DNA from: Akkermansiaceae bacterium
GTDB lineage: Bacteria > Verrucomicrobiota > Verrucomicrobiia > Verrucomicrobiales > Akkermansiaceae
Length of the DNA stretch: 40,546 nucleotides
Reading direction: 5' to 3'
Assembly (NCBI GenBank): GCA_903826205.1
Contig: CAIKDP010000156.1
Coordinates: 1 to 40,546, forward strand
This document shows, one piece after another, positions 2,381 through 35,182 of this stretch; position 1 is the stretch's first letter; the number at the start of each line of letters is the position of its first letter. A program made the translations under genes and the position numbers. Below the pieces are notes generated by a model. It ran no database searches. It was not told where the DNA came from and worked only from the letters and a program-made list of their open reading frames with translations.

Positions 2381-3691
2381 TCACAGAATCGGCAACTGCC
2401 ATGGATCGCGCCGCGGCCGATCCAGCATCTTGTTCGCCTCGTCATCGCCGCTGAATTGTTCCGCGGCGGGGTCCCACTTGAGTTTGCGGCCAAGTCTGAT
2501 AGAGAGATTGGCGAGGTGGCACACCGTGCTCACGCGGTGGCCGATATCGACCGGGAAATACGGGTCCTTGCGGCTCTTGACGCATTGCAGGAAATCATCG
2601 TGCTCGCCAAGTGGATTGGTGTAGAGATGCAGCTCATCGGGCCCGATGACGGATGTTAGGATTTGCGGGGAACTGGCCTGCACGGGAGCGCGCCACCCGG
2701 AGTTGCCGACCCAGCCATCGCTGCCGATGAACTTGATGCTTGGCTCACCCGGCTTGCAGGTCATGACCACGCCATTGGCATAGCGGAACGTCACATCATA
2801 GTCCTTGACTGTGTTGTAGAGGCCTCCCTGCCAATGGGTGCCGGTGCCTTCAATCTCAACCGGGCCGCTGTGTTCCGTGTCGTTAGCCCACTGCGCGGTA
2901 TCGAACAAATGGGCACCCCAATCGCAAATGATCCCGCCGGAATAGTCCCAGATCCAACGGAAGTTGCCATGCACCCGGTCCTTGGTATAGGGTGCGTCAG
3001 GTGCCGGGCCCAGCCACATTTCGTAATTGAGTTCCGCTGGCACCGGTTGCGGGGTGGCATTGCCAGGTCCGTTAGGTTGTTTGGGCAGGATGACCTCGAT
3101 GCGCTGGAGTTTGCCGATCCGGCCGTTGCGGACCAACTCGGCCATGCGGTGGTATTCCGGCACCGCGCGGTCTTCGGTGCTCGTCTGGAAGACTTTGTTG
3201 TGCTTGCGCACGGCTTTGACCAGCACCTTCCCCTCGTGGATGGTTAGAGTGGGCTTCTCGCATTGCACATCCTTGCCGGCCTGGATGGCTAACAGGCTGA
3301 TGAGCGTGTGCCAATGATCCGGGGTGGAGATCATGACCGTGTCAATGTCCTTGCGGGCGAGGATCTCGCGGAAATCCATGGTCGCAAAACAATCCGTGTT
3401 CTGATAGTGGCGGTTCACCATCCCCTTGGAGCGCAACAGATGGTGGTTGTCCACGTCGCAGACGGCGACCACTTGGGCGCTGTTGTGCTTGAGATAGGGT
3501 GGGAGGTTCCAGTCCACCCCATGGTTCCCGGTGCCGATGAAGCCCACGGTGATGCGGTTGCTCGGGGCCGTGTGGCCATCCGCACCCCGCGCCGAGGATG
3601 GAATGATCGTGGGCCCGGCGACGACAGCGGCTGCTGCCGCGGCCGATTGACGGAGAAAGGTGCGGCGGGAATGCATGGTGGGTGGGGTCAT
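2381..3691 (-). CDS. Tat-secreted Gfo/Idh/MocA-family oxidoreductase
   Basis: A 436-residue protein with a Tat signal (SRRTFLRQSAAAAAAVVAGP), a dinucleotide-binding loop FIGTGNHG at residues 51-58, ISTPDHWH about 121-128 and the family's catalytic CEKP at 144-147. A later GAHLFDTAQW motif also fits. Members use tightly bound NAD(P) to oxidise or reduce sugars or to perform redox-assisted glycoside cleavage. The ATG at 3691 overlaps the TGA of the upstream GH2 gene as ATGA, which indicates translational coupling; an internal ATG (MHSRRTF) is an alternative start. Pairing with a GH2 enzyme suggests the product acts on a sugar released by, or on the same glycan as, that glycosidase. The substrate is unknown. 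Confidence 0.9.
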   Translation of the reverse strand: MTPPTMHSRRTFLRQSAAAAAAVVAGPTIIPSSARGADGHTAPSNRITVGFIGTGNHGVDWNLPPYLKHNSAQVVAVCDVDNHHLLRSKGMVNRHYQNTDCFATMDFREILARKDIDTVMISTPDHWHTLISLLAIQAGKDVQCEKPTLTIHEGKVLVKAVRKHNKVFQTSTEDRAVPEYHRMAELVRNGRIGKLQRIEVILPKQPNGPGNATPQPVPAELNYEMWLGPAPDAPYTKDRVHGNFRWIWDYSGGIICDWGAHLFDTAQWANDTEHSGPVEIEGTGTHWQGGLYNTVKDYDVTFRYANGVVMTCKPGEPSIKFIGSDGWVGNSGWRAPVQASSPQILTSVIGPDELHLYTNPLGEHDDFLQCVKSRKDPYFPVDIGHRVSTVCHLANLSIRLGRKLKWDPAAEQFSGDDEANKMLDRPRRDPWQLPIL

Positions 3692-18555: not shown

Positions 18556-21500
18556 TCATTGGGCCAGGACGCGGACGAAGAGTTTGCCGTTGTCTGGAAC
18601 GGTGCTGACATGCACCGTCACCGTCTGGATGTCGCCGTTGGTGGTGACGTTTTCCTCGGTGGCCCCCGCGTCCAACGCCCAAGCTCCCAGATCGGTGGAA
18701 GTGCGCACCTGATAGGCGAGGCCGGACCCGACGCGCCGGGTGTATTGGAACCGGCCCGTGACCGGATCGAGCGGCTGGGTGATCGGGTTGCACGAGGATG
18801 GGTCGGTCGGCTTGAGGCCGAAGGCGAATTCCTGTTGGTTGGTCATGCCGTCATGGTCGGGGTCGTCATTGGCGCCATCGTTGAAGCCGGGGGTGAACCC
18901 TTGCGCGGGGTCACCCGCCCAACTGGCGTAGGGCGTGAGTGAAGATTCAATAACCGACACGGTGAAATATTTGAAGGAACCATTCTGGGCGGTTATGGTG
19001 TAGGTCTGCGACGCGGAAAAATTCCTGCCGATCCCGGGAGCCGGAGAGCCCGAAGCGAAAGGCGAAACCGTGTAGGCGGGCGCCAGGTTAGTTAGATCGG
19101 TGCCATACGGCACGGTCCAGAGCACGGTGCCGGCACCGGTGTCAATGACGGCACTGCTTCTTGGGATATTGGTGCCGAAGGTCAAGATGTCCTTGGCCGT
19201 GGAAATCGTCGTGAAACTCAGCGGGGTGGCCGGCCATACCGTGTGCGTTGCGTTGGTGGCCCGGAAGGTGAAGTAGCAAGTCGTGCCGGGAGCCAGATTG
19301 GTGATCGCGCGGGTGAGGTCGATGGAAGCCTCATTGGTCCACGAGCCGACGGTTGCCGAGTTGGCCCAGTTGGCGGGGTTCATGCCGCCGTTGACGGGGC
19401 CCCAGTAGGCGACCACGTCGTAGGAGTTGCCGTTGCACATCAAGGTGGCGTTGAGCGTCGCGGTGGTGGTGGTGACCGCAGTAGCGGCACGGTTGGCTAG
19501 GCTGCCGGTCGCCGGATAAGCCGTGGCGAGCCCGTATTTGGCTGCGAGGTAGCCGCCGACCAACGCTTCATCACTCGCTGACAGCGCGGTGGAGTAGCCG
19601 ATGATCTCGGCCACGTCGAACATCATCGAGCCGAGGGTTTCGTTCTTGCCTATCTGATAGTACGGATACTGGGCCAGATTCGCCGCACTTGCGCTGCCAT
19701 CAACGGTGATCTTGAGCAGCATGAATTCGGTGATAGGTGCGAGATGGAAGCCGACACCACTCACGTCATTCTGCGCCAACGGTGTGCCATTCCTGGAAAC
19801 TGCCGCCGGGAAGTGGTCTTGCCAGAACCCGTCGGTGCCACTGGCCAGATTGTAGCTGGAGGCCCGCACGGTAAGAAAATCATCGGATTTGCGGCCGAGG
19901 AACGAGCCGGGGCCGCTCCAAGTGCTGCCCGGTGAGCGCACCACGACGTACTGCTCTTTGGCGAAGAATTTTCCGGCCACGTTGAACCAGGTGGAGTTGT
20001 CCCGGAAGCGGACCACCGGTTGGGTCATGAGTTGGTTCGGGACCAGTACCGGCGAGCCGCTGGCCAAAGCCGCGTGATGTGCATTGCCGGAGCGGTCATT
20101 CCAGCTTTGCACCACCCCGTAGGCATCGGTGGTGGCGCCTACGGCCGCATCAAAGTGGCAGGCGAGGCCCGCTGTGACGGGAACCGTGTAGCCGTCCACC
20201 GTGATCACCGCAACGGTTGACGTGCTGATCTGTCCCGTGCTGGTCGTGGCCTTTGCCGTTAGACGATACTCCCCCGCCGCCACATTTCCCCAAACCACAG
20301 AATACGGCGCGGTGGCATCGGTCCCGATCAGCGTATCGCCGTTATAGAAGGCCACACCGGTTACCGTGCCGGCCACGTCCGAGGCATCGGCCGTCAGCGT
20401 GATTGTTGCCGTCTGGCCGGCCACCAGACCGAAGCGGGCGCCGCTGAGCGGTGAGGTCAGGCTCACGCCCGCCACTGGAAACAACAACTCCTGCGGGATG
20501 ATCATGGCGGCCTGGCGGGACGGGATATACCAATACAATCTAACAGTAGATGGATTTACATTGTCATAGTATTCCATTTTGAGGTTGTATTTTTGCCCTG
20601 CCGTCAGGGTGATGGGCCCGCTGTCGTTCCAGATGTTGGTGGACTGGTTGTTCCAATCGTTGATCACCTGCACGCCGTTGACCCACAAGCGGACCCCGTC
20701 GCTGGTGCGCGCGGAAAACCGGTAGGTCCCGCTCTCCGGCGCCAGCACCTGCCCGGTCCAGCGCACGCTGTAGGTGCCCGCCGCCAGCGGGCTGGGCGGC
20801 ACCGTGCCCCAGTCAAAGTTGACGAACGCGTCGGTCCGCGTCGCCTTGAGCGAGGTCAAATCCACGTTGTCGTAATAGAGTCCGGTCAAGCCGCTGCCTC
20901 CGCCGCCCACCACGATGTCCACGATCGCGGGCGTCGAATCGGTTAGACTGTCGGTGACCTTGAACGTGAACTGGTCCAAGTCCTGATAGCCTGGAGCCGG
21001 GGTGTAAGTCAGGTTGGGCGGCGTGCCGGTGAGGGTGCCGTGCGCCGGTTGGGTCACGACCGTGCAGGTCACCGGGTTTGACCGGCAGGAGAAGCCGGTC
21101 AGGGTGATGGCCACGGGGGTGTTGACCGGGGTGACCAGGATTTTCGGATCGGCCGTTGGCAGCACATAGTTGAGTGCCGGTGTGCTGGTGGCGGCTTCCA
21201 GTTTGGCAATGGTGCTTACCAGTGAGTTATAGTTTTCGCCGTGCGCCCAACTGGCAAGGTCGGCATACAAATCCGGCAGCGTCCAGCGGGCCGCCTCGCC
21301 ATAATCCCCCAATCTCGATAGGGCGGTGCTGCCGATATTTCCCCAGTAATCCACATTATCGGCGCACACCTCGATCGCTTCCTGAACGCGGTATTTCGCC
21401 AACGCATTGATTGCCGCCGAGGTCGCGAAAAGGGTGAACATCCGGTCGCACGGCCCCTGGGTGCGCGCATCCTTCAACAGATCCTGGGCCAGCACCTGCA

Positions 21501-23700
21501 CATCCGTCAGGGACAGGTTGTTCTGCACGAAGTCGCTCAGTTGATTGCGCCACATGCCGGCCGGTTGTTTGATCCCGGCCCGGACTGCCGGATAGAGCAG
21601 GGCCTTGTCGGCATTCATGGTGTAGCCTCCCATCCGACTGAACAACGTCTCCGCCAGATAGCCGTTGGCAATCTGCAAGGGATCGTCCCAATTGAAACCG
21701 GCCTCGAACGGATAGGTGGGTGCCACGTTGGCGACCATCGCCCCTAACATGTCTGGCAGCGCCGGGGCCACATCCGCCGCATTGATCTGGCCGAGCGCCT
21801 TGGCGGCTTTGGCGCGCACCCAGATGTCGGTGTCCTTGAGGCATCGGGTCAGGGCGGGCACCGCGCTGGCAGCCCCCAGGCAGCCGAGGGTGGTGCAGGC
21901 CGCCTCGCGCTGATTGGCGCTGGCGGGATTTTCCGCCATGACGATCAGGGCGTCCACGTCCGCGGGGGCCAGCGTGCGGGTGGCCAGTTCGGTGGCGGCA
22001 TTGAAGCGCACAATCGGATCCCACTCGCCAAGGGCGGCAACCAGTTGCTCCTTGGAATAGCCGCCGCAATTCGCGGTGAAGTCTGCGGCCCAGGTGGCGT
22101 TGTTCACCTTCTCGGCACTCAGCGTGTTGGCCGGGTCCGCATTCTTGCCGGTGATATAAAGTTTTTTCAAGGGGATGCAGGCGTGCAGGAGATAATAGGC
22201 GGTTGGGTTGCCCCAATAGGTATAACTACTGTCATAGTAGTCGGCAGCCTTGCCGGGCCCCCATTGCTCGTCGCCTTCATACACGAAAGAGCCGTCACAG
22301 CGGCGTTTCATGTCGCGGTCCCAGCGCAGGGTTTTCTGGTATTCAGCCACCGCGGTTGGGCCGCCGACATTGGCACCCAGCGCCGTCCACAGGTAGCTGA
22401 ACCCTTGGCCGGTGTGACCGTAGGCCTCGCCCCGGAATCCCGCCACCGACATCCGCGAAAAATACTCGGTCTGCACCGGCTTGTTGCCCATGCAGGCGAA
22501 CATGACCGCGGAGAGCCCGTCCTTGCCGTTGCTGCAGTGGTCATAATACGTCCGGCTCTGGCCTGGAAGTGAGTGATCGCCGGGATATGGCTGGTGTTCG
22601 CCATAGGGAATGGACCCCCGGTTGACATAGTAACCGAAAAACTTGGCTGCCCGCTCGATGGCCGGATCGATTTCGGGATTCACCACGCCGGCCTTTTTCC
22701 CTAACGCAATCGAGAGTTGGGCGGCCAGTCCGGCCTGATTCACCGGGCCATACCAACTGATCGAGCCATGGGTCCCGGCGGCCTCCAGGCCGGGTTCGGG
22801 AAGGTTCGAAAACCCGTGGCCGGCCGTGCCGAACATGCTCGAATGCTTGGCCGCGTAGATGACATACTCGCTCAACCCGTGAAGCACCTGCGCGTCGGGA
22901 GTGCCGAGATCCACGGTGCGCATGTAATACTCAGCCAGAAAAATGGCGTTGTAGCATTTCCAAGCGTCTATCCCTCCGGTGCGCTCCAAGTCAAGATCCT
23001 GGGGCGCAAGCGCGCGGGCATAAGTCTGCAACATGGACATGTAGGTATGATTGCCGGTGGCCAGCAGGGCCAAGGCGCTGATGGCCCCCCGCCCATCGTT
23101 AGCACCCCAACCGTTCGCTGATATGGAATTATACAGACTCGTGGCGGCGGCGTTCCTGATCCGTTGGGTCTTGAGACAATTGTAGGGTGCCGTGTCGGAG
23201 TAGGCGCCCATGACGGTCAGGGTGATGGACACATCCGCAGTGGCGACCCCCGAGCGCCAGCGTTTGAGTCTGAGTACGCCATTGTCGGCCTCGGCGGCGC
23301 CGATCGCCCAGCCCAGGCTCTTGCGGGCGTCGCTGGTGAAGAGCGGTACATCGCCAATACCCCCCGCCTGGGCCCCGAGAATCACATCGTCGACGGCCAG
23401 CTTGCCCGAGGCCGGCGTGCCGGAGGCCACGGTGGTCACCAGGATTTGATAGGGGGCAAATGCCGTATAGCCATCCTGTGCCGGGGTCTCGGGCCAGCCG
23501 TTGTCAATCCAGCCGCGCATGCCGGTGGACCCCAGGTTGTAGGTCCAGGTGCGGTCCACCGAGAGCCGGTTGTTGCCGACGGTGAGGTCAATCTTTTTGG
23601 CAGTGCCCGCCTGCACCACGGTGGGCAAAGCGAACAGCAACGCCAGAACGATCACCTTGGGCAAGGCATGCAGAAGGCGTGGGGTGGTGGTAAGATTCAT
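18556..23700 (-). CDS. Giant secreted DUF6288-type protein with HEAT, cadherin-like, PA14, LamG-like and Fn3-like domains
   Basis: 1714 residues from ATG 23700, where a good signal peptide begins (KVIVLALLFALPTVVQAG); an ATG at 23730 would add 10 charged residues. Apparent order: PDZ-like segment (GKLAVDDVILGAQ) and an (alpha/alpha) toroid typical of DUF6288 proteins (about 50-530); HEAT-like repeats (about 540-680); cadherin/Big-like domain (about 865-935, VVTQPAHGTLTG); PA14 domain (about 935-1075, TSDGVRLWVNGVQVINDW); Ig-like (about 1080-1180); concanavalin-like laminin-G-type region (about 1185-1390); Fn3-like domain (about 1400-1490); then DPDHDGMTNQQEFAFGLKP and a tail ending NGKLFVRVLAQ. 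PA14 and LamG-like parts suggest glycan binding at the cell surface. Catalytic activity is unknown. It heads the minus-strand run leading to the GH95-like gene. Confidence 0.78.
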   Translation of the reverse strand: MNLTTTPRLLHALPKVIVLALLFALPTVVQAGTAKKIDLTVGNNRLSVDRTWTYNLGSTGMRGWIDNGWPETPAQDGYTAFAPYQILVTTVASGTPASGKLAVDDVILGAQAGGIGDVPLFTSDARKSLGWAIGAAEADNGVLRLKRWRSGVATADVSITLTVMGAYSDTAPYNCLKTQRIRNAAATSLYNSISANGWGANDGRGAISALALLATGNHTYMSMLQTYARALAPQDLDLERTGGIDAWKCYNAIFLAEYYMRTVDLGTPDAQVLHGLSEYVIYAAKHSSMFGTAGHGFSNLPEPGLEAAGTHGSISWYGPVNQAGLAAQLSIALGKKAGVVNPEIDPAIERAAKFFGYYVNRGSIPYGEHQPYPGDHSLPGQSRTYYDHCSNGKDGLSAVMFACMGNKPVQTEYFSRMSVAGFRGEAYGHTGQGFSYLWTALGANVGGPTAVAEYQKTLRWDRDMKRRCDGSFVYEGDEQWGPGKAADYYDSSYTYWGNPTAYYLLHACIPLKKLYITGKNADPANTLSAEKVNNATWAADFTANCGGYSKEQLVAALGEWDPIVRFNAATELATRTLAPADVDALIVMAENPASANQREAACTTLGCLGAASAVPALTRCLKDTDIWVRAKAAKALGQINAADVAPALPDMLGAMVANVAPTYPFEAGFNWDDPLQIANGYLAETLFSRMGGYTMNADKALLYPAVRAGIKQPAGMWRNQLSDFVQNNLSLTDVQVLAQDLLKDARTQGPCDRMFTLFATSAAINALAKYRVQEAIEVCADNVDYWGNIGSTALSRLGDYGEAARWTLPDLYADLASWAHGENYNSLVSTIAKLEAATSTPALNYVLPTADPKILVTPVNTPVAITLTGFSCRSNPVTCTVVTQPAHGTLTGTPPNLTYTPAPGYQDLDQFTFKVTDSLTDSTPAIVDIVVGGGGSGLTGLYYDNVDLTSLKATRTDAFVNFDWGTVPPSPLAAGTYSVRWTGQVLAPESGTYRFSARTSDGVRLWVNGVQVINDWNNQSTNIWNDSGPITLTAGQKYNLKMEYYDNVNPSTVRLYWYIPSRQAAMIIPQELLFPVAGVSLTSPLSGARFGLVAGQTATITLTADASDVAGTVTGVAFYNGDTLIGTDATAPYSVVWGNVAAGEYRLTAKATTSTGQISTSTVAVITVDGYTVPVTAGLACHFDAAVGATTDAYGVVQSWNDRSGNAHHAALASGSPVLVPNQLMTQPVVRFRDNSTWFNVAGKFFAKEQYVVVRSPGSTWSGPGSFLGRKSDDFLTVRASSYNLASGTDGFWQDHFPAAVSRNGTPLAQNDVSGVGFHLAPITEFMLLKITVDGSASAANLAQYPYYQIGKNETLGSMMFDVAEIIGYSTALSASDEALVGGYLAAKYGLATAYPATGSLANRAATAVTTTTATLNATLMCNGNSYDVVAYWGPVNGGMNPANWANSATVGSWTNEASIDLTRAITNLAPGTTCYFTFRATNATHTVWPATPLSFTTISTAKDILTFGTNIPRSSAVIDTGAGTVLWTVPYGTDLTNLAPAYTVSPFASGSPAPGIGRNFSASQTYTITAQNGSFKYFTVSVIESSLTPYASWAGDPAQGFTPGFNDGANDDPDHDGMTNQQEFAFGLKPTDPSSCNPITQPLDPVTGRFQYTRRVGSGLAYQVRTSTDLGAWALDAGATEENVTTNGDIQTVTVHVSTVPDNGKLFVRVLAQ

Positions 23701-23765
23701 AGGGCAGTTCGCGTGTTTTTCCTTCCGCACGCGGAGAGACGATACCGTGGTTGCCGCAACCTGCC

Positions 23766-23978: not shown

Positions 23979-25928
23979 ATGACTTTGCCTATTCCCATAA
24001 CCCCCTGTTCCCCACCCTCTGGTCCGGATGCCGGCTCTTGCAACGGCCTTCACACCAAGCAATTTTCCAATTGTCAATTGCTGCTAATGGTGGTTCTGGG
24101 TCTAGCGCAGGCTCTCGGCGCTGCCGAGTATCCGGTGACGCCCGTGCCGTTCACGGAGGTGACGCTTACGGATTCGTTCTGGGCCCCGCGGCAGGCCACC
24201 AATCGTGCGGTCACCGTGGAACACAATCTCAGGGAGATGGGGAAACAAGGTTCGCTCGGCGGGTTCAAGGTTCTTGCCGGTGCCAGCGCCGAAAAATATC
24301 ACGGCTACATGTGGGGCGACTCGGACGTGTACAAGACCCTTGAGGGCGCAGGCTATCTCCTGAAAACCAAAGCCAACCCGGATCTCGCCGCACGCATCGA
24401 TGGAATCATTGCACAAATCGGGCACGCGCAAGCGCCGGATGGTTATATCTTTCCGCATCTCCAGATCACCGAGCCAAACTACGAGAAGTTTTCCAGGGAG
24501 ACCAGCGGGACCTGCGAATCCTACAGCATGGGCCACCTGATAGAGTCGGCGGTGGAATATTCCAGGATGACCGGACGGACGGACTTTCTCGCTGTTGCCA
24601 GGCGTGCCGCTGACTTGATGGTGAAAGTAAACAAGGAAGGCAAGCTCTTGCAGGTATCAGGCCACCCCGAGGTTGAGATTGCGCTGGTGAAACTCTACCG
24701 GGTCACGGGACAACCGGAGTATCTCGATCTGGCGCAGAGGTTGGTCGATGGATACAAGACCCACCTGAGTCTTTGGTCCGGAGGCAAACCCGTGATGGGG
24801 CACGATGATGTTCTTGGCCATGCAGTGGCAGTCATGTACCTGTATGCCGGCGCGACTGATGTCGCAGTCCTCAAGGGTGACACTTCGTTGATAGATCGAC
24901 TGGCAAGGAAATGGGAGCGGATGGTCGGCCGGAAAATGTACCTAACCGGAGGAGTCGGGCACAGTCAGCACCAGGAAGGGTTTTCCGATGACTACGACCT
25001 GCCGGCGGAGAAGGATGTCTACAGTGAAACATGTTCCGCGATTGCGGATGTCTTCTGGTCAAGCCGCATGTTCCAGGCCACCGGCGAGTCGAAATATTAC
25101 GACGTGATAGAGCGGGTTCTATACAACAACCTGGCGGCCGGCGCGGGGTTGAGCGGTGACCGGTTCTTCTACACCAATCCGCTGGCGTCCGGGGGGAAGG
25201 ATTCCCGCTGGGCATGGCATGACTGCCCGTGCTGCCCGGTGAATCTGGTGCGCTTCTGGCCGCGGTTGTCCGAATACATTTTTGCAACCGGGCCGGCGGA
25301 TCTATACGTCAATCTGTTTGCGGCCTGCGAAGGCAAGGCGACGGTGGCCGGGACTGAAGTAAGGATTTGTCAGAAGACGGATTATCCATGGGATGGCAAA
25401 GTGACGCTGGAGATCTTTCCTGAGAAGCCGGTGGAGTTTGTGTTGCGCGTGCGCATCCCCGGCTGGGCGGAAGGCAGACCTTTGCCGTCGGATCTCTATC
25501 AATATGTGTCGCCCGGAACGGAACAGGTTGAGCTGAAGGTCAACGGCGGGGAAACGGATAGAGTCAGGGACAAGGGCTACGCGATGATCCGGCGGCAGTG
25601 GCAGGCCGGCGACCGGGTTGAATTGATATTGCCGATGCCGGTGCGCAAGGTGGTTGCGAATGCCAAGGTGGCGGCGCTCAAGGGCATGGTTGCAGTGGAG
25701 CGTGGGCCGCTGGTTTACTGTGCCGAGGGTGTGGACAATGCCGGCAAACTTTCAGGGCTGGAGGTGCCGCCATCCGCCGGGTGGCGGGTCGAGAAACAAG
25801 CCGGATTGCTCAATGGTCTTTGCACTATAAAGGGGGGGCTGACGCTCATTCCGTATTATGCCTGGAGTCATCGGGGAACCGGTGCAATGACAGTGTGGTT
25901 CGCGGATTCCGTTCGGAACGAGCCTTGA
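23979..25928 (+). CDS. Secreted GH127-family glycosidase (beta-L-arabinofuranosidase family)
   Basis: 649 residues. The diagnostic GH127 metal and cysteine pattern is complete: YSETCSAIADVFW supplies Glu350 and Cys352, and CPCCPVNLVRFWPRL supplies Cys418 and Cys419; in characterised members one of the last two cysteines is the nucleophile and the set binds zinc. KMYLTGGVGHSQ and GTCESYSMGHLIESAVEYSR are further family motifs. Members release beta-L-arabinofuranose from plant glycans, and some B. thetaiotaomicron members act on RG-II aceric acid. The N-terminus is uncertain: the first 25 or so codons resemble the intergenic stretch at about 25970-26010, and ATG at residue 37 (MVVLGLAQALGAA) is only a short signal core. 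The fusion gene follows after a 170-200 bp gap. Confidence 0.92.
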   Translation: MTLPIPITPCSPPSGPDAGSCNGLHTKQFSNCQLLLMVVLGLAQALGAAEYPVTPVPFTEVTLTDSFWAPRQATNRAVTVEHNLREMGKQGSLGGFKVLAGASAEKYHGYMWGDSDVYKTLEGAGYLLKTKANPDLAARIDGIIAQIGHAQAPDGYIFPHLQITEPNYEKFSRETSGTCESYSMGHLIESAVEYSRMTGRTDFLAVARRAADLMVKVNKEGKLLQVSGHPEVEIALVKLYRVTGQPEYLDLAQRLVDGYKTHLSLWSGGKPVMGHDDVLGHAVAVMYLYAGATDVAVLKGDTSLIDRLARKWERMVGRKMYLTGGVGHSQHQEGFSDDYDLPAEKDVYSETCSAIADVFWSSRMFQATGESKYYDVIERVLYNNLAAGAGLSGDRFFYTNPLASGGKDSRWAWHDCPCCPVNLVRFWPRLSEYIFATGPADLYVNLFAACEGKATVAGTEVRICQKTDYPWDGKVTLEIFPEKPVEFVLRVRIPGWAEGRPLPSDLYQYVSPGTEQVELKVNGGETDRVRDKGYAMIRRQWQAGDRVELILPMPVRKVVANAKVAALKGMVAVERGPLVYCAEGVDNAGKLSGLEVPPSAGWRVEKQAGLLNGLCTIKGGLTLIPYYAWSHRGTGAMTVWFADSVRNEP

Positions 25929-26070: not shown

Positions 26071-26128
26071 CGGGTGAAATTGACTTTGTCGCAGCCGCAT
26101 GAGACGGTGCGCTGACGCCAACCTAACC

Positions 26129-29100
26129 ATGCAGCCATTTCTAACACGTAATTTCCCGCGCCGGGCCTTTGTAAAAACCTGCGGGAAGATCGATTCCCCA
26201 CGCTGCTTCCTTGCCTGTTGCATCACGCTCTTCGGCACGCTTGCCGGTTTGCCTCTAGCAGCTGCAGGAGGGGAACCTCTCAGGACGCAGGCAAACTGCG
26301 TCGCCGAAGTCACGCTGACGTCCGGGAGTGCCTATCCGAACCCATTCGTGGACGTGACGCTGGACGCGCTGGTCACCGCGCCGGATGGAGGCCAGTTCAA
26401 GGTGCCGGCCTTTTGGGCGGGCGGCAATGCATGGCGCTTCCGCTATGCCTCGGCGCTTGCCGGCACGCACACTTTCCGCACCGAGTGTTCCGATGCCGCG
26501 AATCCGCAGCTGCACGGCGTCGCGGGGACAATTGAAATTTCCGCCTACCGCGGTGAGAACCTGCTCTATCGTCACGGTGCGCTTCGCGTCGCCAAAGACC
26601 AGCGGCACTTCGAGCAAGCCGACGGCACGCCTTTCTTCTGGTTAGGCGACACGTGGTGGAAAGGACTCTGCAAGCGGCTGACCCTGGAAGGGTTTCAAGA
26701 GTTGACGGCCGACCGCAAGGCCAAGGGCTTCAGCGTGATCCAGATAGTCTGCGGACCTTATCCAGATGAAGGGTTCCTCAAGCCCAGCTGGGAAAACGAA
26801 GGCGGTCAGCCCTACCTGGCGAAGGATTTGAGCGTGCTCAATCCAATGTATTTTGCTTATGCGGACAAGCGGCTCCAACACCTTGTGGACTCAGGACTGG
26901 TGCCGGCGATTGTCGGCGCCTGGGGGCGGGGCGACTGTGACGCCATGCAGGCATTCGGCGCCGCGGCACTCAAACGCCACTGGCGGAATCTCGTGGCGCG
27001 CTATGGTGCCTATCCGGTGATGTGGATTGTGGCGGGTGAAATCGCCGATGAAACCAAATGGGGCCAGGGGCCGTGGGCTGAAGTGGCGGCGTATGTGAGA
27101 AGCATCGACCCCTATCACCGCCCGCTCACCTGTCATACCGCTCCCGGCAACGGACGGCGCGGCGCGAGTGGCGACGCTTGTCTGATAGATTTCGACATGG
27201 TCGGGGGCAATCACGACGCCCCCACCGCCATGTCGGCCAAGACGCTGGCCATTCTAACATCAGCGCGCGCGACGTCGCCGCCCATGCCGGTGCTGGTCGG
27301 CGAGACCTGCTACGAAGGGCACATGCAGCAAGGGTTCCACGATGTGCAGCGGCATTTGTTCTGGATGTATCTGCTCGCCGGGGCGGCGGGCCACACCTAT
27401 GGCGCGGCCGGGGTCATGCCGGCGGGCGTGGCTGGCGAGCATGGGAATTGGGGCGCCTGGAGCGGCCAACCCTATGACTGGACCACCTGGCAGGAAGGCA
27501 TGAACTACGCCGGCTCAACCCAGCTCGGGCTCGGCAAGAAATTGCTGGAAAAGTATCCATGGTGGCGGTTTGAGCCGCATCCCGAGTGGGTGGACGCAGG
27601 TGGCCATGCCGCGGGGATACCCGGTGAAGTGCGCTTCATCTATCTGCCCCGCCGCAACATCTACAACTGGGACGGCCCGACCGTGAAAAATCTTGAGCCG
27701 GGCGTCGATTGGCACGCCTACTACTTTGATCCGGCGACCGGCCGCATCTTTGATCAGGGCGTGCTCAAGGCCCGGGCACAAACCGGTGACACGACGGCGC
27801 CGCCTGTTGAGTTCAAAAAGAACGTGCCATCACCACAGGATTGGGTGCTGGTGCTGGAACGGGTGAAACCAGCGAACGTGGCGCCGTCCCAGACAGATCT
27901 TGGATTTGCGGATCCAGCAAACACCCCGCCGCCACCGGCCGGCGCGATCGGGCAGTCCAACCGCGCCCCGGACTTCGATGTCCTGCCAGGTTTCCAACAG
28001 GTTCCAGCGGGCTTTGGCAATGTGGCGTTCTACTGGTGGCTCGGCGACAAACTCACCAAGGAGCGCCTGACCTGGCAACTCGACCAGTTGAAGGATCACA
28101 GCACCTCGGGGCTTCAGATCAACTACGCCCATAGCGACAAGGGCGGGCAATCCTGGGGCTACACCTTGCCGAGCGATCCGCCACTGTTCAGCGAGGACTG
28201 GTGGCGCTTGACCCAGTGGTTCGTCCAGGAGGCGAAACAACGCGGCATGGCCGTCAGTCTCAGCGACTACACCTTGGGCTGGGCCGGTCAGGGGTGGTTC
28301 GTCGACGAGGCCCGGAAAAAGTACCCGGAGCTGCCTGGCGCCAGCCTCAGTTCAAGCTCGATACCGGTGGCAGGCAAAACCGTCACGACCAAGGTGCCAC
28401 CTGCGGTGCTGTCCCTATCAGCGTACAACAAGCAGACAAGGCAATGGGTTGATCTGCGTGGCGCAGTGAAAGATGGGTCGCTGGAATGGCACGTGCCTGC
28501 AGGCGAATGGGTGCTGACCCAGGTTGAGGCGAAACACAACCCGGTGTCCATCGATCCCATGAACCCGGCGTCCGGGCGCGGCATCATCGAGTGTTTCTAC
28601 CAGAAGTTCGAGGACAAGAACCCCGGTGAGAGCGGCAAGGGCATCAATTTCTTTTTCTCCGATGAGCTCAGTTTCGGGATCCAAGGCTGGCTCTGGAACC
28701 CGCATTTCAGCGAGGAGTTCAAGCTGCGCAAAGGCTACGACGTGACGCCGGAACTGGCTGGATTGTTCACCGACATCGGCCCGCGCACCGCGAAGATCCG
28801 CCTCGACTACTCCGATGTCATGGTGGCCCTTTCCGAGGCGAACTATTTCAAGCCGATCTTCGACTGGCACCAACAACGGGGAATGACCATGGGCTGCGAT
28901 CATGGTGGACGCGGCCAGGACCCGCTGGAATTCGGCGACTATTTCCGGACCCAGCGCTGGAACCAGGGCCCTGGCGCCGACCAGCCGCACCTAACCAAAA
29001 ACCTGTTCAAGGCCAAAGTCGCCTCGTCGATGGCCCACCTGTACCTGCGTCCACGCGTCTGGCTGGAAGGCTTCTATGGCAGCGGCTGGGACACCACCAG

Positions 29101-31399
29101 CGGGATGGTGGGCGATGCCATCTTATCCAACTTCGCCCATGGCTACAACCTGCTGTCATTCCATGGACTCTACTATTCGACCCATGGCGGCTGGTGGGAA
29201 TGGGCGCCGCCATGCAACCATTTCCACATGCCGTACTGGCCGCACATGAAGCCGATGATGCGCGGCGTCGAGCGCCTCTCCTATCTGATGAGCCAGGGCC
29301 ACCACCGCTGCGATGTGGCGGTGATCTATCCGGTCGAGGCGGTGGAAGCCGACCGCAAGGGCGGGATGGAGGCGTTCAGGCTATCTAACAGGATTGGCGA
29401 CAAGTTATACGAAACGGGGATCGACTTCGACTACATGGATTTTCAGTCGTTGGCGCGGGCCAAGGTGGTGGACAAGAAACTCGAGGTCAGCGGCGAGACC
29501 TACGCCGTGTTGGTCCTGCCATCAATGAAGGCGATGCGCTGGATCACCTTGCAAAAGGCCCTCGAATTTCAGCGGGCGGGTGGGCTTGTCGTCGTTGTCG
29601 GCGAGCTGCCCGAGGCGAGTGACCGGATGGGGAGCGACGACCCCGAACTGACCCGGCTTGCCGCAGAGTTCAAGACCCGCATTGCCACGGCGGAGGAACT
29701 GATTGGTGTGGTTGGCAAGGCGTTGCCGCGCGACTACCGCGGCGAAGGCGAGATCAATCACCGCCGGATCGGCGGGCGCGATGTCTACATGATCTATGGG
29801 GCGTCGAAGGGCAGCCTTGCCGGGTTCCGGGCGTCGGGCAAGGTCGAACTCTGGAACCCATGGGATGGCACGGTCGAACCGCTCGCCGTCGAAAACCAAT
29901 CCGCCACCGCCACTGAGCTCAGGCTGCCGCTGGACAAGCAGGAAGTTCAGCTCATTGTGTTCTCGCCGGGTAAGGCGCTTGTCCATGACGGCCAACCGCT
30001 GGCGGCGGTGACAACCTATCCAGTGGACTCCAACGGTTGGGGATTTGAGTTGGTGCCGACTTTGGACAACCGCTTCGGCGACTACCATTGGCCGCCGACC
30101 CGCGCGTTGATCGGGGCGGAAGCGAGGATTTTCAACTACACCGGGCCCGGGGCGCAGACGCCGGTCGAAACCACCGCCGGTTTCGGGCCGAAGCTCTGGA
30201 TGCTCGGACCGGTCCCCGCCACCTTCGATGACACGGCCTTGCAGAAGTTGACCTCGATCGCTCCCGCTCAGGCAGTGGCGTCCGTCGGCGGCAACGTCCG
30301 CTGGACCCCGTACGAATTCTCGTGGCGCTGGGGCAAGCAGAACGACCCCGGCCACCAAGGATACCATGGACTCAAGGCGGATGTCAGCGACGAGTTCCTC
30401 TGCCTCGGCAAGCCCCAACAAGGAGCCAACGAAACAAACTATATATCGGAGGCTGGCGGGACGAGTTATTATATATGGACCAGCGTTCCCATCGCCAATG
30501 AGACAACGGCCTATCCAGTCGCCGCCGGCACGGCACTGCCGGATGCGGTCTGGGTCAACGGGAAAATTGTCCAACTCGGCGTGGCGGTGCAACTGAACCC
30601 CGGCGCCAACAGCTTGCTGGCGCGTTATCCAAAGGCTGGCCGCGGATATTTGGTGATGGCGACCAAAATCCCGGCGCCGCTGCCACCCACTCCAACAGAC
30701 GGGATGGGACGTCCCCTGTTTGAGGAAAAGCCGTTGGCCATGCGCTGGTGGCACAACCCTGACATTCTTGCGTTTGACTCCCACCCGCAGATCAAGCAAC
30801 CGGTCGGCACCTATCAGTTCATGTCGCCACCGGGCTTGAAGGAATTGGTGGTGGAGGACGCGCAGGGCGGATTGGAGGTCATGGTTGCCGGAGCCAGGTT
30901 GAAACAAGACGGCAACCGTTTCATCGTCGGGACGGTGTCGCCCGGCCCGGCACCGGTCACGATCACGGTGACCCAACAACGCGGGGCCTACGCCGGGGCG
31001 GCCTTGCCCGAATACATCCGTATGGTCTGCGGCGAAGGCTTGTTCGACTTGGGGGACTGGTCGTTGAACGATGGCTTGAGATGCTACTCAGGAGGCGCCA
31101 GGTACCGCAAGGTCATCGAGATTCCCCGCTGCAAGCGGGTGGTCTTGAACCTTGGCGAAGTGTGCGCCTCGGCGGAGGTTTTTGTGGATGGGAAATCCGC
31201 GGGGATTCGTGCCATGCCGCCATGGACCTTCGACCTAACCGGTTTGCTGAATGCCGGCACCCAACACAAACTCGAGGTCCTGGTCTATAGCGCGCTGGAC
31301 AACCACTACCGGACGATACCCACTCATTACACGGCATGCAGAAAGTCAGGCCTGATCGGTCCGGTCAGCCTCGAAGTGATCAACCCCGAAAATCAATGA
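26129..31399 (+). CDS. Fused secreted enzyme: GH140-like (DUF5060-DUF4038) module plus GH106-like alpha-L-rhamnosidase module
   Basis: 1756 residues from ATG 26129; an ATG at 26099 lies in repeat-like DNA. A hydrophobic signal segment (CFLACCITLFGTLAGLPLAA) precedes a DUF5060 beta-sandwich (about 50-145), a DUF4038/apiosidase-like TIM barrel (about 150-465; FFWLGDTWWKGL, IQIVCGPYPDEG, WIVAGE with Glu304, PVLVGETCYEG with Glu392) and a C-terminal beta domain (EKYPWWRFEPHPEW). A proline-rich linker (NTPPPPAGAI) near 600 leads to a GH106-like module (YWWLGDKLTKERLTWQLDQL, WWRLTQWFVQEAKQRGM, NFFFSDELSFG) that runs to a galactose-binding-like end (AEVFVDGKSAG). GH140 includes RG-II apiosidase; GH106 includes RG-II-active alpha-L-rhamnosidase. 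A single polypeptide could remove adjacent sugars. The stop overlaps the next gene as ATGA. Confidence 0.85.
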   Translation: MQPFLTRNFPRRAFVKTCGKIDSPRCFLACCITLFGTLAGLPLAAAGGEPLRTQANCVAEVTLTSGSAYPNPFVDVTLDALVTAPDGGQFKVPAFWAGGNAWRFRYASALAGTHTFRTECSDAANPQLHGVAGTIEISAYRGENLLYRHGALRVAKDQRHFEQADGTPFFWLGDTWWKGLCKRLTLEGFQELTADRKAKGFSVIQIVCGPYPDEGFLKPSWENEGGQPYLAKDLSVLNPMYFAYADKRLQHLVDSGLVPAIVGAWGRGDCDAMQAFGAAALKRHWRNLVARYGAYPVMWIVAGEIADETKWGQGPWAEVAAYVRSIDPYHRPLTCHTAPGNGRRGASGDACLIDFDMVGGNHDAPTAMSAKTLAILTSARATSPPMPVLVGETCYEGHMQQGFHDVQRHLFWMYLLAGAAGHTYGAAGVMPAGVAGEHGNWGAWSGQPYDWTTWQEGMNYAGSTQLGLGKKLLEKYPWWRFEPHPEWVDAGGHAAGIPGEVRFIYLPRRNIYNWDGPTVKNLEPGVDWHAYYFDPATGRIFDQGVLKARAQTGDTTAPPVEFKKNVPSPQDWVLVLERVKPANVAPSQTDLGFADPANTPPPPAGAIGQSNRAPDFDVLPGFQQVPAGFGNVAFYWWLGDKLTKERLTWQLDQLKDHSTSGLQINYAHSDKGGQSWGYTLPSDPPLFSEDWWRLTQWFVQEAKQRGMAVSLSDYTLGWAGQGWFVDEARKKYPELPGASLSSSSIPVAGKTVTTKVPPAVLSLSAYNKQTRQWVDLRGAVKDGSLEWHVPAGEWVLTQVEAKHNPVSIDPMNPASGRGIIECFYQKFEDKNPGESGKGINFFFSDELSFGIQGWLWNPHFSEEFKLRKGYDVTPELAGLFTDIGPRTAKIRLDYSDVMVALSEANYFKPIFDWHQQRGMTMGCDHGGRGQDPLEFGDYFRTQRWNQGPGADQPHLTKNLFKAKVASSMAHLYLRPRVWLEGFYGSGWDTTSGMVGDAILSNFAHGYNLLSFHGLYYSTHGGWWEWAPPCNHFHMPYWPHMKPMMRGVERLSYLMSQGHHRCDVAVIYPVEAVEADRKGGMEAFRLSNRIGDKLYETGIDFDYMDFQSLARAKVVDKKLEVSGETYAVLVLPSMKAMRWITLQKALEFQRAGGLVVVVGELPEASDRMGSDDPELTRLAAEFKTRIATAEELIGVVGKALPRDYRGEGEINHRRIGGRDVYMIYGASKGSLAGFRASGKVELWNPWDGTVEPLAVENQSATATELRLPLDKQEVQLIVFSPGKALVHDGQPLAAVTTYPVDSNGWGFELVPTLDNRFGDYHWPPTRALIGAEARIFNYTGPGAQTPVETTAGFGPKLWMLGPVPATFDDTALQKLTSIAPAQAVASVGGNVRWTPYEFSWRWGKQNDPGHQGYHGLKADVSDEFLCLGKPQQGANETNYISEAGGTSYYIWTSVPIANETTAYPVAAGTALPDAVWVNGKIVQLGVAVQLNPGANSLLARYPKAGRGYLVMATKIPAPLPPTPTDGMGRPLFEEKPLAMRWWHNPDILAFDSHPQIKQPVGTYQFMSPPGLKELVVEDAQGGLEVMVAGARLKQDGNRFIVGTVSPGPAPVTITVTQQRGAYAGAALPEYIRMVCGEGLFDLGDWSLNDGLRCYSGGARYRKVIEIPRCKRVVLNLGEVCASAEVFVDGKSAGIRAMPPWTFDLTGLLNAGTQHKLEVLVYSALDNHYRTIPTHYTACRKSGLIGPVSLEVINPENQ

Positions 31400-33057
31400 A
31401 TACACCTCCCCTGCTGATTGCCATGTTGATTACCGCAGTTGCCCTGCCTGGCCCGACTCCAGCTACAGCCGCTGATGCGGGACAAGCCCTCACCGCACAA
31501 GCGAACTGTGTCGCCGAAGTTACTCTAACATCCTCGGTGTCCTATCCGAACGCTTTTCTGGAGGTGACGCTCGATGCGCTGGTGACCGCGCCGGATGGCC
31601 GGCAGTTCAAGGTCCCGGCATTTTGGGCGGGCGGCAATCTATGGCGATTCCGCTATGCCTCGGGGGCGGTCGGCACGCACGCCTATCGCACCGAGTGCTC
31701 CGATACCGGGAATGCGACACTGCACGGCGTCAATGGCAAGATTGAAATCGTTCCCTACCACGGCGACAACCCGCTCTATGGCCACGGCCCGATTCGCGTC
31801 GCCAAAGACCAGCGGCACTTCGAGCATGCCGACGGCACACCGTTCTTCTGGTTAGGCGACACCTGGTGGAAAAACCTGTGCCAGCGGATGACATGGGAAG
31901 GCTTCCAGCAGCTGGCGGCCGACCGCAAGGCCAAGGGCTTCAGCGTCATTCAGATCGTGTGCGGGCCATATCCCGATGAGGGGGCGTTCGACACACGCTG
32001 GGAGAACGAAGGCGGGATGCCTTACGCAACCAAGGATTTCAGCGTGATCAATCCTGGCTACTTCACTTTCGCTGATCGGCGCATTCAACACCTCGTGGAA
32101 GCAGGCATGGTCCCGGCAATCGTCGGCGGATGGCATTCGTATAAGGAGGCCGTGAAGGACTTCGACGGGACCGGATGGCCCAATCAAAATTTCGAGTATA
32201 TGCACTTGATCGGCGAAGCGGGTTTCAAGCGGCATTGGCGTAACCTCATTGCGCGGTATGGTGCCTATCCTGTGGTCTGGATGATCGGCGGCGAGGCTGC
32301 CGGCCCGCAATGGACCGAATTGGCAAGGTATGTCCGCGATACCGACCCATATCACCATCCCGCGACGATGCACCCTCCCGGTGGCAAGACCGGCCGGCAG
32401 GCAGTCACCGACCCAAGCGTGCTCAGCTTCGACATGCTGCAAACTCCACATGGCGATGGCACCGCGGGCGCAGCCGTTGCAAAATTGAGGGGCACCTGTT
32501 CGAGCACCCCGGGCATGCCCGTTCTGATAGGCGAGTGCAGCTATGAAGGCCAAACCGCCGTCGGGGATGCTCAGCGTTACCTGTTTTGGGGATGCATGCT
32601 CAACGGCGCGGCGGGCCACACCTACGGCGCGTCGGGCGTCTGGAACGCGGGCACAGCGACCGATCCCGGAACATTCCCTGTCTGGGACTGGACAACGTGG
32701 GCGGAGGGGATGAACTTCTTGGGTTCGACGCAACAGGGACTGGGCAAGAAACTGCTTGAGAAGTATCCATGGTGGCGATTTGAGCCGCATCCGGAATGGG
32801 CCGAAGCGGGTTCCTTTGCGGCAGGCATCCCCGGCGAAGTGCGGTTCATCTACCAGCCCAAACGCGATATATACGATTGGAATAGCCCGCAAGTGAAGGG
32901 TCTCGAGCCCAACGTGCCCTATCACGCCTTCTACTTCAATCCATGCAACGGCATGCGACACGCCATAGGCGCAGTTGCCAGTGGCGGCACATACAAGGCG
33001 CCGGCACTGCCTTCGCCTCAGGACTGGGTGCTGGTGCTTGAACGCGGGAAACCGTAA
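31396..33057 (+). CDS. Secreted GH140-like (DUF5060-DUF4038) glycoside hydrolase, paralogue of the fusion's first module
   Basis: 553 residues. The ATG at 31396 overlaps the upstream TGA (ATGA) and begins a signal peptide (PPLLIAMLITAVALPGPTPA). The protein matches the first 580 or so residues of the upstream fusion closely: NCVAEVTLTS, FKVPAFWAGGN, RVAKDQRHFE, FFWLGDTWWKNL, IQIVCGPYPDEG, VVWMIGGE (Glu300), PVLIGECSYEG (Glu380) and EKYPWWRFEPHPEW. It stops with PSPQDWVLVLERGKP, just where the fusion crosses into its linker. In GH140 apiosidase an Asp and a Glu are catalytic; here the first candidate position is Glu. A tandem duplication followed by fusion, or fission, is likely. The next gene starts 8 bp downstream. 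Confidence 0.88.
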   Translation: MNTPPLLIAMLITAVALPGPTPATAADAGQALTAQANCVAEVTLTSSVSYPNAFLEVTLDALVTAPDGRQFKVPAFWAGGNLWRFRYASGAVGTHAYRTECSDTGNATLHGVNGKIEIVPYHGDNPLYGHGPIRVAKDQRHFEHADGTPFFWLGDTWWKNLCQRMTWEGFQQLAADRKAKGFSVIQIVCGPYPDEGAFDTRWENEGGMPYATKDFSVINPGYFTFADRRIQHLVEAGMVPAIVGGWHSYKEAVKDFDGTGWPNQNFEYMHLIGEAGFKRHWRNLIARYGAYPVVWMIGGEAAGPQWTELARYVRDTDPYHHPATMHPPGGKTGRQAVTDPSVLSFDMLQTPHGDGTAGAAVAKLRGTCSSTPGMPVLIGECSYEGQTAVGDAQRYLFWGCMLNGAAGHTYGASGVWNAGTATDPGTFPVWDWTTWAEGMNFLGSTQQGLGKKLLEKYPWWRFEPHPEWAEAGSFAAGIPGEVRFIYQPKRDIYDWNSPQVKGLEPNVPYHAFYFNPCNGMRHAIGAVASGGTYKAPALPSPQDWVLVLERGKP

Positions 33058-33064
33058 TGGATCG

Positions 33065-35182
33065 ATGACAACATCACCCCATTTTTGGAGTAATACAAAA
33101 TCCGCCATGTCCCACCCCTCCCCATCCATCCACGTCACCTCATCAGCCTCAGGAATGCGCCCGGTGGAATTCCCAGCGCATTCCCGGAGAAAAATTCCCA
33201 CCGCCCACTCATCGGTTCGCCACGCGCCGTTCCTAACGATAGCAGCCCTTTGCGCCCTGGCTTCATCGGCGGTGCATGCCGATGACGACCCATTACGGGT
33301 CATCTCCCCCAGCCTTGATGTGCGGATGTCACCGAATCATCCGGGGCTCGAAGCATTGGATCTCGATGGTCTGGGGCTCGGCAAGCGCGGCCCCAATGTC
33401 ATCGGCAAGCCCGACCCGGCCGCCTTCGGGGATCCGGCCGCCGGCTCCCGCAACATGCCGGACGCGGGTAATCTGTTAGATAACTTCACCACCTCGGCCA
33501 CCCCCATCTCCGGGGGCGTGAGCGTCGCCTACCATCACCGCGGCGAGCCTGCTGGCACGCCTCCGTCATGGACCATTGAGTCGGACGGACGCGGGCTGCG
33601 GTTGATCTCCCAATGGAGTGCCGCGAGCGCTCCCGAACCGCTGCCACTGATCATTGACGCCCGCATCTGCCATGCGTCCTTGCTCGGCCTGTTCAACGCG
33701 GATGGCCGGATCGCACTGCCTGCAGTCCTGCATTTCCCCGGACGCGGATCCCTGCGCATCACCACACCGGCAGCCAAGGATGCCACCCTCGAATACCTCA
33801 CCGGCAGCAAGAATTTCATCCGGATCACCTTTCCGTCCGCCACCCAAGCCACTCCCAGGATCGCCTTCGATCTAACCGTCACCGCGATCCATCCCGAGCT
33901 GCCGGAGATCGGGGCCGACCGCAGGTTTGACGCGTTCCGTCGCAACTGGCTCAACATCCTGCAACTCAATCCCGAGCTTCGCGTGCTGGCTAACAACGTC
34001 GCCAGCACGCCCTGTGGGCTTTGCTATTACAAGTACGCCGATATTGCCACCCACACCCCGCCGCTGGCGGATGGCCTCACCGCCCTCGACCTCATGCGTC
34101 AGACCATGGACGCCATGCTCGCCGGGAAGAAAACCTACGGCATGCCCGGAAGCGGAAGCGAATCCGGCAGCGCCTATCCGGTGGAATCAGCCGACACCTT
34201 TCCATCGCTGGTGATCGCGGCGGGTATCTGCGCGGCAGGCGACACGAATGCCGCCTGGCTGCGCGCTCATTATGCCGGCATCAAGGCCTGGGCTGAGCGG
34301 ATGTTGGCAACTGACATCAACGGCAACGGCCTGATCGAATACAGCCCGGCCACCGGCAATTCCGGTTCCTGGAACGAAGGCGAACCCAAGGTGCGGCCAT
34401 CTAACTGGTGGGACGCCATCGGCTTCGGCCATGAGGACGCCTACGCCAATGCGCTCGCCTACCGGGCCTTGCACAGCATGGCGCGGATGGCCGCAAGCCT
34501 CGATGACAACGCCGGCGCCGCACGTTACCGTGCCGCCGCCGACAAGCTCAAAGCCGCCTATTTTCCCGCCTTCTATAACCCGGACACCGGCATCCTCGGC
34601 GGTTGGAGAAGTGCCGATGGCCAGCTTCACGACTACTGGTTCCTCTTCGTGAATGGCATCGCCATCGATTATGGCTTGGTGGCGCCCGAGCGTGCCGCCG
34701 CCATTGCCGATCGGCTCTTGAACAAGATCAAAGAGGTCGGCTACACCCGGTTCGATATGGGCCTGCCTGGCAATCTGGTCTCCATCGCCCGCAAGGACTA
34801 TGCCCACAAGGTTCGGCGCTGGGGCGGCGGTCGGCGCGAAGACAATGCCGATGGCTTCCAGATCTACGAAAACGGTGGTGCCACCGCCTGCTTCGCCTAT
34901 TTCACGCTGGCCGCCTTGTACGATCTCGGCCGGCGCGAAGCGGCGGATCAGATCCTGCTGCCGATGCTTGGGGGATTCGACCAGTGCGGATTTGAAGGCC
35001 AAGGCGCCAATGGCATGACCAACGATTGGCGGAAGTGGGATGGAACGCCGATGGGTTATGAAGGCTTCCTGGTCGACAACTATTATGCCCTGTTAGCCGT
35101 CGTCGCCCGCGCGCGGGGCGGTCATCTCTTCAGCGAGAAGGAACCGCCTGCGGCCGGAGCGGGCACCCACCCTGCACCATGA
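33065..35182 (+). CDS. Secreted six-hairpin glycosidase-like protein
   Basis: About 705 residues if ATG 33065 is used (8 bp after the previous stop); ATGs at 33107 and 33155 are alternatives, and the signal core APFLTIAALCALASSAVHA sits far downstream, so a later start is possible. After a beta-rich N-terminal region the protein is an (alpha/alpha)6 toroid of the GH37/63/78 superfamily type: NSGSWNEGEPKVRPSNWWDA, GFGHEDAYANALAYRALHSM, WFLFVNGIAIDYGLV, GGRREDNADGFQIYENGG, YEGFLVDNYYALLAV. The acidic residues in SWNEGEP and EGFLVDNYYA suit an inverting glycosidase. No family number can be assigned. Its first 45 bp resemble those of the gene at 35925. Its stop overlaps the next ATG (ATGA). Confidence 0.72.
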   Translation: MTTSPHFWSNTKSAMSHPSPSIHVTSSASGMRPVEFPAHSRRKIPTAHSSVRHAPFLTIAALCALASSAVHADDDPLRVISPSLDVRMSPNHPGLEALDLDGLGLGKRGPNVIGKPDPAAFGDPAAGSRNMPDAGNLLDNFTTSATPISGGVSVAYHHRGEPAGTPPSWTIESDGRGLRLISQWSAASAPEPLPLIIDARICHASLLGLFNADGRIALPAVLHFPGRGSLRITTPAAKDATLEYLTGSKNFIRITFPSATQATPRIAFDLTVTAIHPELPEIGADRRFDAFRRNWLNILQLNPELRVLANNVASTPCGLCYYKYADIATHTPPLADGLTALDLMRQTMDAMLAGKKTYGMPGSGSESGSAYPVESADTFPSLVIAAGICAAGDTNAAWLRAHYAGIKAWAERMLATDINGNGLIEYSPATGNSGSWNEGEPKVRPSNWWDAIGFGHEDAYANALAYRALHSMARMAASLDDNAGAARYRAAADKLKAAYFPAFYNPDTGILGGWRSADGQLHDYWFLFVNGIAIDYGLVAPERAAAIADRLLNKIKEVGYTRFDMGLPGNLVSIARKDYAHKVRRWGGGRREDNADGFQIYENGGATACFAYFTLAALYDLGRREAADQILLPMLGGFDQCGFEGQGANGMTNDWRKWDGTPMGYEGFLVDNYYALLAVVARARGGHLFSEKEPPAAGAGTHPAP

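Follow-up and report, generated by a model that had tools for sequence, protein, structure and literature searches.

A window of 40,546 nucleotides (the whole stretch of DNA that was analyzed, from an Akkermansiaceae bacterium) encodes a polypeptide in which a DUF5060/apiosidase-like enzyme runs on into a GH106-like module, and we regard it as very probable that two secreted glycosidases, as a rule the products of separate genes, have here been fused in frame naturally. The open frame, the modules, the module-to-module join and the catalytic-site conservation in each half can be read directly from the data. The architecture itself, which is built from known families, is most likely genuine. 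Taken as a whole, the observations are best explained by a natural secreted enzyme with two glycosidase modules that targets a glycan bearing rhamnose, a reading that we favor by a modest degree. It should be noted that fused catalytic partners hint at which bonds adjoin in a glycan; the main interest of this case lies in the repeated fusion of the GH106-like module with differing partners.

The fusion gene and its junction

A stop-free frame extends across the ORF 26099-31399 (+) and encodes 1766 aa; this frame (P0001) provides the residue numbering throughout. By inspection, the ATG at 26129 would be a better fit to the signal peptide than the ATG at 26099. The gene and its parts are as follows:

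26129..31399 (+): fusion gene, 1756 aa; the alternative ATG at 26099 gives 1766 aa
26129..26266 (+): putative signal peptide, residues 11-56, from the translation inspected by eye
26303..26488 (+): DUF5060, residues 69-130 (Pfam PF16586, 49.1 bits, cut-off 27.2)
26594..27565 (+): apiosidase-like catalytic barrel, residues 166-489 (Pfam PF13204, 220.2 bits, cut-off 26.5)
27869..27895 (+): junction, 9 residues (PANVAPSQT) between ..LERVK and DLGFADPAN..
27896..31396 (+): GH106-like module, residues 600-1766, with the proline run as part of its native N-terminus
28433..29884 (+): match to Pfam Glyco_hydro_106 (PF17132), residues 779-1262 (96.9 bits, cut-off 29)
31067..31303 (+): C-terminal GH2-type jelly-roll, residues 1657-1735 (matches to NCBIfam NF045579 and PDB profiles)

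The original prediction described a GH140-like/GH106 fusion of about 1750 residues in a single secreted chain, and its outline was borne out: the frame is single and open, its N-terminus is signal-like (by inspection), and, in the Pfam search for DUF5060, DUF4038 and GH106 that had been proposed as a check, the module assignment held, with DUF5060, PF13204 and PF17132 each over the gathering score. A RRAFVK stretch inside the putative signal peptide resembles a Tat motif. Two NCBIfam models scored below their thresholds in the second half, i.e., the rhamnoside jelly-roll NF045579 (41.4 bits, cut-off 50) and the BT4145 rhamnosidase model, which was weak (98 bits against a cut-off of 1300; residues 643-931 on profile positions 16-307).

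In the relatives examined, each half has a gene to itself. Free-standing enzymes of the apiosidase-like kind run to about 550-610 aa, or more when extra parts are attached, and several of them end in ..VPSPQDWVLVLERVK (..QDWVLVLERVK) or a near variant. Their GH106-like counterparts mostly have about 1100-1300 aa and, once past a signal-like stretch, start as L135 does with AGDLAFSDPANTPPPPAGAIGFADRS, following the pattern (A/G)DL.FSDPAN..PPPA..G. The fusion reads ..LERVK-PANVAPSQT-DLGFADPANTPPPPAGAIG.., i.e., the final residues of the free-standing apiosidase-like form meet the mature N-terminus of the free-standing GH106-like form, and a stop, a spacer and a second signal peptide are all absent. 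The GC content is flat over the join (0.624 and 0.614, with 0.606 in the next gene). A stop codon lost near 27900 through a sequencing error, which the original prediction had named as grounds for abandoning the fusion, is rejected, because one sequencing error cannot also delete the spacer and the signal peptide of the second module.

The "proline linker" that had been proposed between the modules does not stand: the proline run is part of the N-terminus that GH106-like enzymes natively have, and it is modeled as ordered. At the start of the GH106-like half, the AlphaFold model has a mean pLDDT of 55 over PSQTDLGFAD and of 89 over the following PANTPPPPAG; judging from this model, the flexible part at the junction looks very short.

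Active-site positions and known relatives

The positions that were compared with characterized enzymes are listed below; BT1012 residue numbers were obtained from 3kzs chain positions with an inferred offset of 20.

27038..27040 (+): Glu314, aligned with Asp187 of BT1012 (3kzs chain position 167)
27302..27304 (+): Glu402, aligned with Glu284 of BT1012 (3kzs chain position 264)
28661..28666 (+): Asp855-Glu856 (FFFSDEL), a DE motif as in Ram106B-type GH106, in 119/119 rows
29066..29068 (+): Glu990, aligned with Glu593 of BT_0986 and 6q2f chain position 644, in 118/119 rows

The residue numbers of BT1012 and BT_0986 (Ndeh et al. 2017) were taken by way of excerpts of PMC4032388 and PMC6828813. 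The alignment rows used for conservation (42 for the first half and 119 for the second) were picked by similarity to the fusion halves, and they include overlapping copies or duplicates as well as the window itself.

The best PDB profile matches of the N-half family are the GH140 beta-apiosidase BT1012 (3kzs/5msy; E 2.6e-33) and 8t9w (E 6.5e-37), with which the PF13204 barrel is shared. The catalytic pair of GH140, Asp187/Glu284, is not matched as a pair: the Glu284 position is kept (Glu402), while the Asp187 position is occupied by Glu314, and both are Glu in 42/42 rows of the fusion's own family alignment. We call the module apiosidase-like, and not GH140, because Asp187 of BT1012 is replaced by Glu314. 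Glu at this position is a known minority form of PF13204, the published proportions being 82% Asp and 17.3% Glu (PMC4032388, excerpt). Compared with BT1012, the fusion also has an N-terminal DUF5060 and a second enzyme attached, and PF12904, the C-terminal domain of BT1012, found no match in either apiosidase-like protein of the window at E 0.01; it is present in L127 and L128. Two further structures resemble the first half and do not carry a GH106 fusion: 4n0r, which matches the N-half family over DUF5060 and the barrel (E 2.2e-23, profile 39-411), and 9gmj, named a DUF5060 domain-containing protein (E 9.1e-14). Neither 4n0r nor 9gmj is known to have an assigned function, and a literature search by code for 9gmj and related PDB codes gave nothing relevant among the papers listed. 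AlphaFold, run on two sequences, gave a pLDDT of 31 for the apiosidase-like half, and this model was set aside.

The second half is modeled with the GH106 fold. The AlphaFold model (43 sequences, from the window and the named loci only) has a mean pLDDT of 89.7 and a pTM of 0.90, and its top matches in a PDB structure search come from two enzymes, both GH106: 6q2f (Z 27.6, rmsd 4.7, 771 aligned), 5mqm (Z 26.2, rmsd 4.3, 725 aligned) and 5mwk (Z 25.5, rmsd 4.5, 732 aligned). The first match to a structure outside GH106 follows at Z 18.2 (rmsd 4.6, 514 aligned). With the GH106 alpha-L-rhamnosidases BT_0986 (5mqm) and RHA-P (6q2f) the module shares the fold, the Glu593 and Asp458 positions and the C-terminal jelly-roll; it differs from them in having no Glu at the Glu461 column and Glu in place of Ser459 of BT_0986, at 13-23% identity according to the structural aligners. 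In the profile alignment, Asp855 aligns with Asp458 of BT_0986 and Glu856 falls at its Ser459 position, both in 119/119 rows; the Glu461 column is variable, with Ser858 in the fusion and no Glu aligned; Glu538 corresponds to Asp934, with His935 next to it in 81/119 rows, and Glu561 to Gln952, whereas Asp947 is invariant. Under another alignment, the invariant Glu856, two residues upstream of Ser858, could be the equivalent of Glu461.

In BT_0986, Glu593 is described as the base and Glu461 as the acid (PMC6828813, excerpt). The same excerpt describes Ram106B rhamnosidases as active and metal-dependent, with DE in place of Asp458-Ser459, loss of Glu461, His at the Glu538 position and Asp at that of Glu561. 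Glu461 does not define the whole GH106 family, because Ram106B enzymes lack it and yet are active. The fusion resembles Ram106B-type enzymes (Tm_, Tn_, Cb_ and Ts_Ram106B and the Niabella enzyme) in the DE motif, the retained Glu593 and the lost Glu461, a likeness drawn from the published motif description (PMC6828813, excerpt); unlike Ram106B, it is joined to an apiosidase-like module. The four Ram106B enzymes are active on pNP-rhamnoside; according to that excerpt, the one assayed with naringin still awaits identification of its natural substrate.

From the conserved positions, it is likely that both modules are catalytically active. As far as the alignments indicate, the specificity of BT1012 and BT_0986 cannot be transferred to the fusion, because no Glu is found at the Glu461 column and Glu occupies the Asp187 position. 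As a side observation, some stand-alone GH106-like enzymes (L052:4809-8927, L110:1837-6381 and others) contain an insertion-like segment, very roughly 150-200 residues long, ahead of the C-terminal part; the fusion has no such segment.

Fusion partners, gene neighborhood and candidate substrates

The same GH106-like module occurs in single chains with other partners, order and lineage. It is preceded by a GH29 alpha-L-fucosidase in a Planctomycetota protein (L168:4405-9678, 1757 aa) and by a DLH-type esterase in a protein from the window's genus (L050:4642-10197, G035, 1851 aa), and in L138:5875-11775, a single frame of 1966 aa, it stands ahead of heparinase II/III N and C domains; L239 (G705) has a frame equal in size to that of L138. 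The GH29, heparinase II/III-like and DLH fusions fall on separate tree branches (119 rows, FastTree, SH-like support). Fusions of the other module were also detected: an esterase-like N-terminus precedes the DUF5060/apiosidase-like module in L059:4297-7416 (Pfam) and, by sequence similarity, in L112:8804-11944 and L065:6426-8819.

The genes adjacent to the fusion are the following:

23979..25928 (+): GH127 gene, about 200 bases upstream of the fusion (Pfam PF07944 and others; aceric-acid-hydrolase model 376 bits, cut-off 950)
31396..33057 (+): DUF5060 with an apiosidase-like module alone, 62% identical to the N-half of the fusion; its ATG overlaps the TGA of the fusion (ATGA)
32975..35182 (+): GH78-like (six-hairpin) ORF with an uncertain start (Pfam PF17389, 35.5 bits)

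A PDB profile search with 33059-35179, from the GH78-like ORF, produced no match. The same-strand run consists of the GH127 gene, the fusion, the second apiosidase-like gene, the GH78-like gene and esterase-like genes, and a GH95 gene lies about 12 kb from the fusion on the opposite strand. Two PF13204 matches were found in the draft genome, both at the fusion locus. The N-half of the fusion forms a group with free-standing proteins from G400 and G445 (SH-aLRT 93), and its downstream neighbor groups with an enzyme of G018 (SH-aLRT 100); a recent tandem duplication of the N-half is rejected, since the two window copies fall in separate supported groups, and on this tree they appear to be old paralogues.

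Elsewhere in the window, the protein encoded at 18556-23730 (-), 1724 aa in length, contains DUF6288, PA14 and bacterial Ig domains together with HEAT repeats, and a GH2 enzyme at 3688-6054 (-) scores 971.2 bits with the NCBIfam model for beta-galactosidase GalA (cut-off 900). Three proteins around the GH95 gene (9455-11659, 14570-16582 and 16634-18538, all on the minus strand; 734, 670 and 634 aa) had no Pfam or NCBIfam match at E 0.001 and are possibly unclassified glycan enzymes.

If the bifunctional reading is right, the chain would be exported once, with fixed 1:1 secretion of both enzymes, and the approximately nine residues between the modules would hold the two sites close. The Glu/Glu apiosidase-like module and the metal-dependent Ram106B-type GH106 module might then take different sugars off one and the same side chain bearing rhamnose; the simplest mechanism would be that the two trim such a rhamnosylated chain jointly. 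Whether both modules act on one glycan seems to us evenly balanced. A proximity effect between them is plausible; the processive removal of sugars that had also been proposed found nothing in its support.

The fusion may alternatively be real and yet lack catalytic coupling, i.e., the modules may cut different bonds or substrates, or one may be weak, so that the benefit would be co-secretion only. Such a reading would agree with the presence of at least three other fusion partners of the GH106-like module and with the finding that an apiosidase-like gene lies near it in 0/80 named GH106-like loci (flanks of at most 6 kb, shorter where the contig was short). The apiosidase-like neighbor search recovered the control loci L001 and L060; as none of the 80 loci has such a gene, GH106-like and apiosidase-like genes are not habitual neighbors. 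The close same-strand neighbors of the GH106-like gene included GH29 (5), GH78-type (4), GH95 (3), GH92 (3) and GH127 (2), counted among the listed 25 of 68 families (80 named loci, 52 proteins). However, the catalytic positions are conserved in both halves and glycan-degrading genes surround the fusion in a same-strand run, and we consider the absence of coupling a possibility well short of even chances.

It is improbable that the fusion is a dedicated RG-II side-chain enzyme removing rhamnose and apiose, as the original prediction had it, and we rate RG-II as the glycan shared by the two modules equally low. In favor of this idea, Rha-alpha1,3-Api-beta1,2-GalA occurs in RG-II, and in B. thetaiotaomicron BT1012 frees Rha-alpha1,3-Api from GalA, after which BT1001 splits Rha-Api (PMC7939467, excerpt); moreover, BT_1012 co-localises with an alpha-rhamnosidase that is perhaps its partner (PMC4032388, excerpt). 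On the other side, the suggested substrate of BT_0986 is the chain-B heptasaccharide (PMC6828813, excerpt). With BT1001 cutting Rha-Api and BT_0986 tied to chain B, the known GH106 enzyme of RG-II does not act beside apiose; the original argument from this enzyme is not supported, and the module in the fusion is Ram106B-type rather than BT_0986-type, next to a module with Glu for Asp187 and no PF12904 match.

The RG-II marker models NF049879 and NF049877 were also far below their cut-offs in the genome, which is 97.66% complete: the best scores were 414 bits for the aceric-acid-hydrolase model (cut-off 950) and 154 bits for the BT0996 model (175 in the protein scan; cut-off 1800), while each model exceeded its cut-off in 1/14 control genomes. 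Other families specific to RG-II include GH137-GH139 and GH141-GH143. On the two marker models, RG-II is unsupported as the substrate rather than excluded.

Marine algal polysaccharides containing fucose or rhamnose, to which Verrucomicrobiota including Akkermansiaceae have been linked (PMC8857213, excerpt), are another possible source of substrate. In the literature consulted, neither the Glu-type DUF5060/PF13204 enzymes nor this branch of GH106-like proteins had an established natural substrate.

For the bifunctional glycosidase that we prefer, a broader interpretation is tentative: the Ram106B-type GH106 module may be a mix-and-match part that was joined independently to at least four partners, each fusion marking the bond beside rhamnose. 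Here, the marked structure would be an undescribed motif with a rhamnosyl residue beside the target of a Glu-type DUF5060/PF13204 enzyme, which is not necessarily apiosyl. The fusion, together with its sister fusions to other partners, could be turned into a short list of test oligosaccharides, and uncultured Akkermansiaceae emerge as possible degraders of rhamnose-rich glycans.

Survey of genomes and long reading frames

The fusion is known from one draft assembly of 469 contigs. Whole-protein searches covered overlapping sets of 59 genomes of relatives, 384 from the class and 73 from the genus (the best candidates per genome, at most 8, 2 and 6, respectively); among the matches listed, none from another genome spanned both halves. 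The GH106-like half was used in a profile search of 387 genomes of the phylum (best 2 candidates per genome). These genome searches were kept within the window's phylum, with family controls only outside it. Among ORFs of at least 300 aa in the collected loci, both halves were matched at E 1e-40 only by the window gene, counted twice in overlapping loci. A scan of 84,980 species genomes with the GH106-like half gave 300 relatives (near-identical records were perhaps omitted), and none of the best 80 of these, which were used, had a match to the N-half. Among the open-licence PMC papers listed in searches on the subject, no title or abstract opening describes an apiosidase-like/GH106 fusion, in accord with the original prediction, to which no characterized enzyme of this architecture was known.

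An artefact, i.e., an assembly chimera of unrelated genes or an error hiding a stop, would be consistent with confinement to one draft genome and with the lack of a second copy in these searches, but a lost stop leaves the missing spacer and signal peptide unaccounted for, a blunt misjoin would need both to preserve the frame and to hit the two module ends within a few residues, the GC content stays level and the fusion stop is overlapped by the next gene downstream, which makes this explanation very improbable.

Co-occurrence of the two halves within the genus is weak: by lower-bound counts at E 1e-60, both halves are present in at least 5 of the 73 genomes, the N-half in at least 11 and the C-half in at least 15 (Fisher p 0.04).

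Suspiciously long frames from the genome searches were retrieved and checked. Several of them were not counted as new catalytic fusions: L109 has an N-terminal extension with no Pfam match; L240:3866-9316 (1816 aa) has about 747 N-terminal residues with no Pfam match, followed by the GH106-like module; L241 has F5/8-type C and rhamnosidase-N domains; L242 and L243 have C-terminal extensions; and the long frame of L201 was likewise left aside. Frames with shorter extensions were seen in L110/L177, L184 and L208, and L127:3496-7317 encodes 1274 aa in one frame, in which an apiosidase-like stretch occurs twice, alongside PKD and PF12904.
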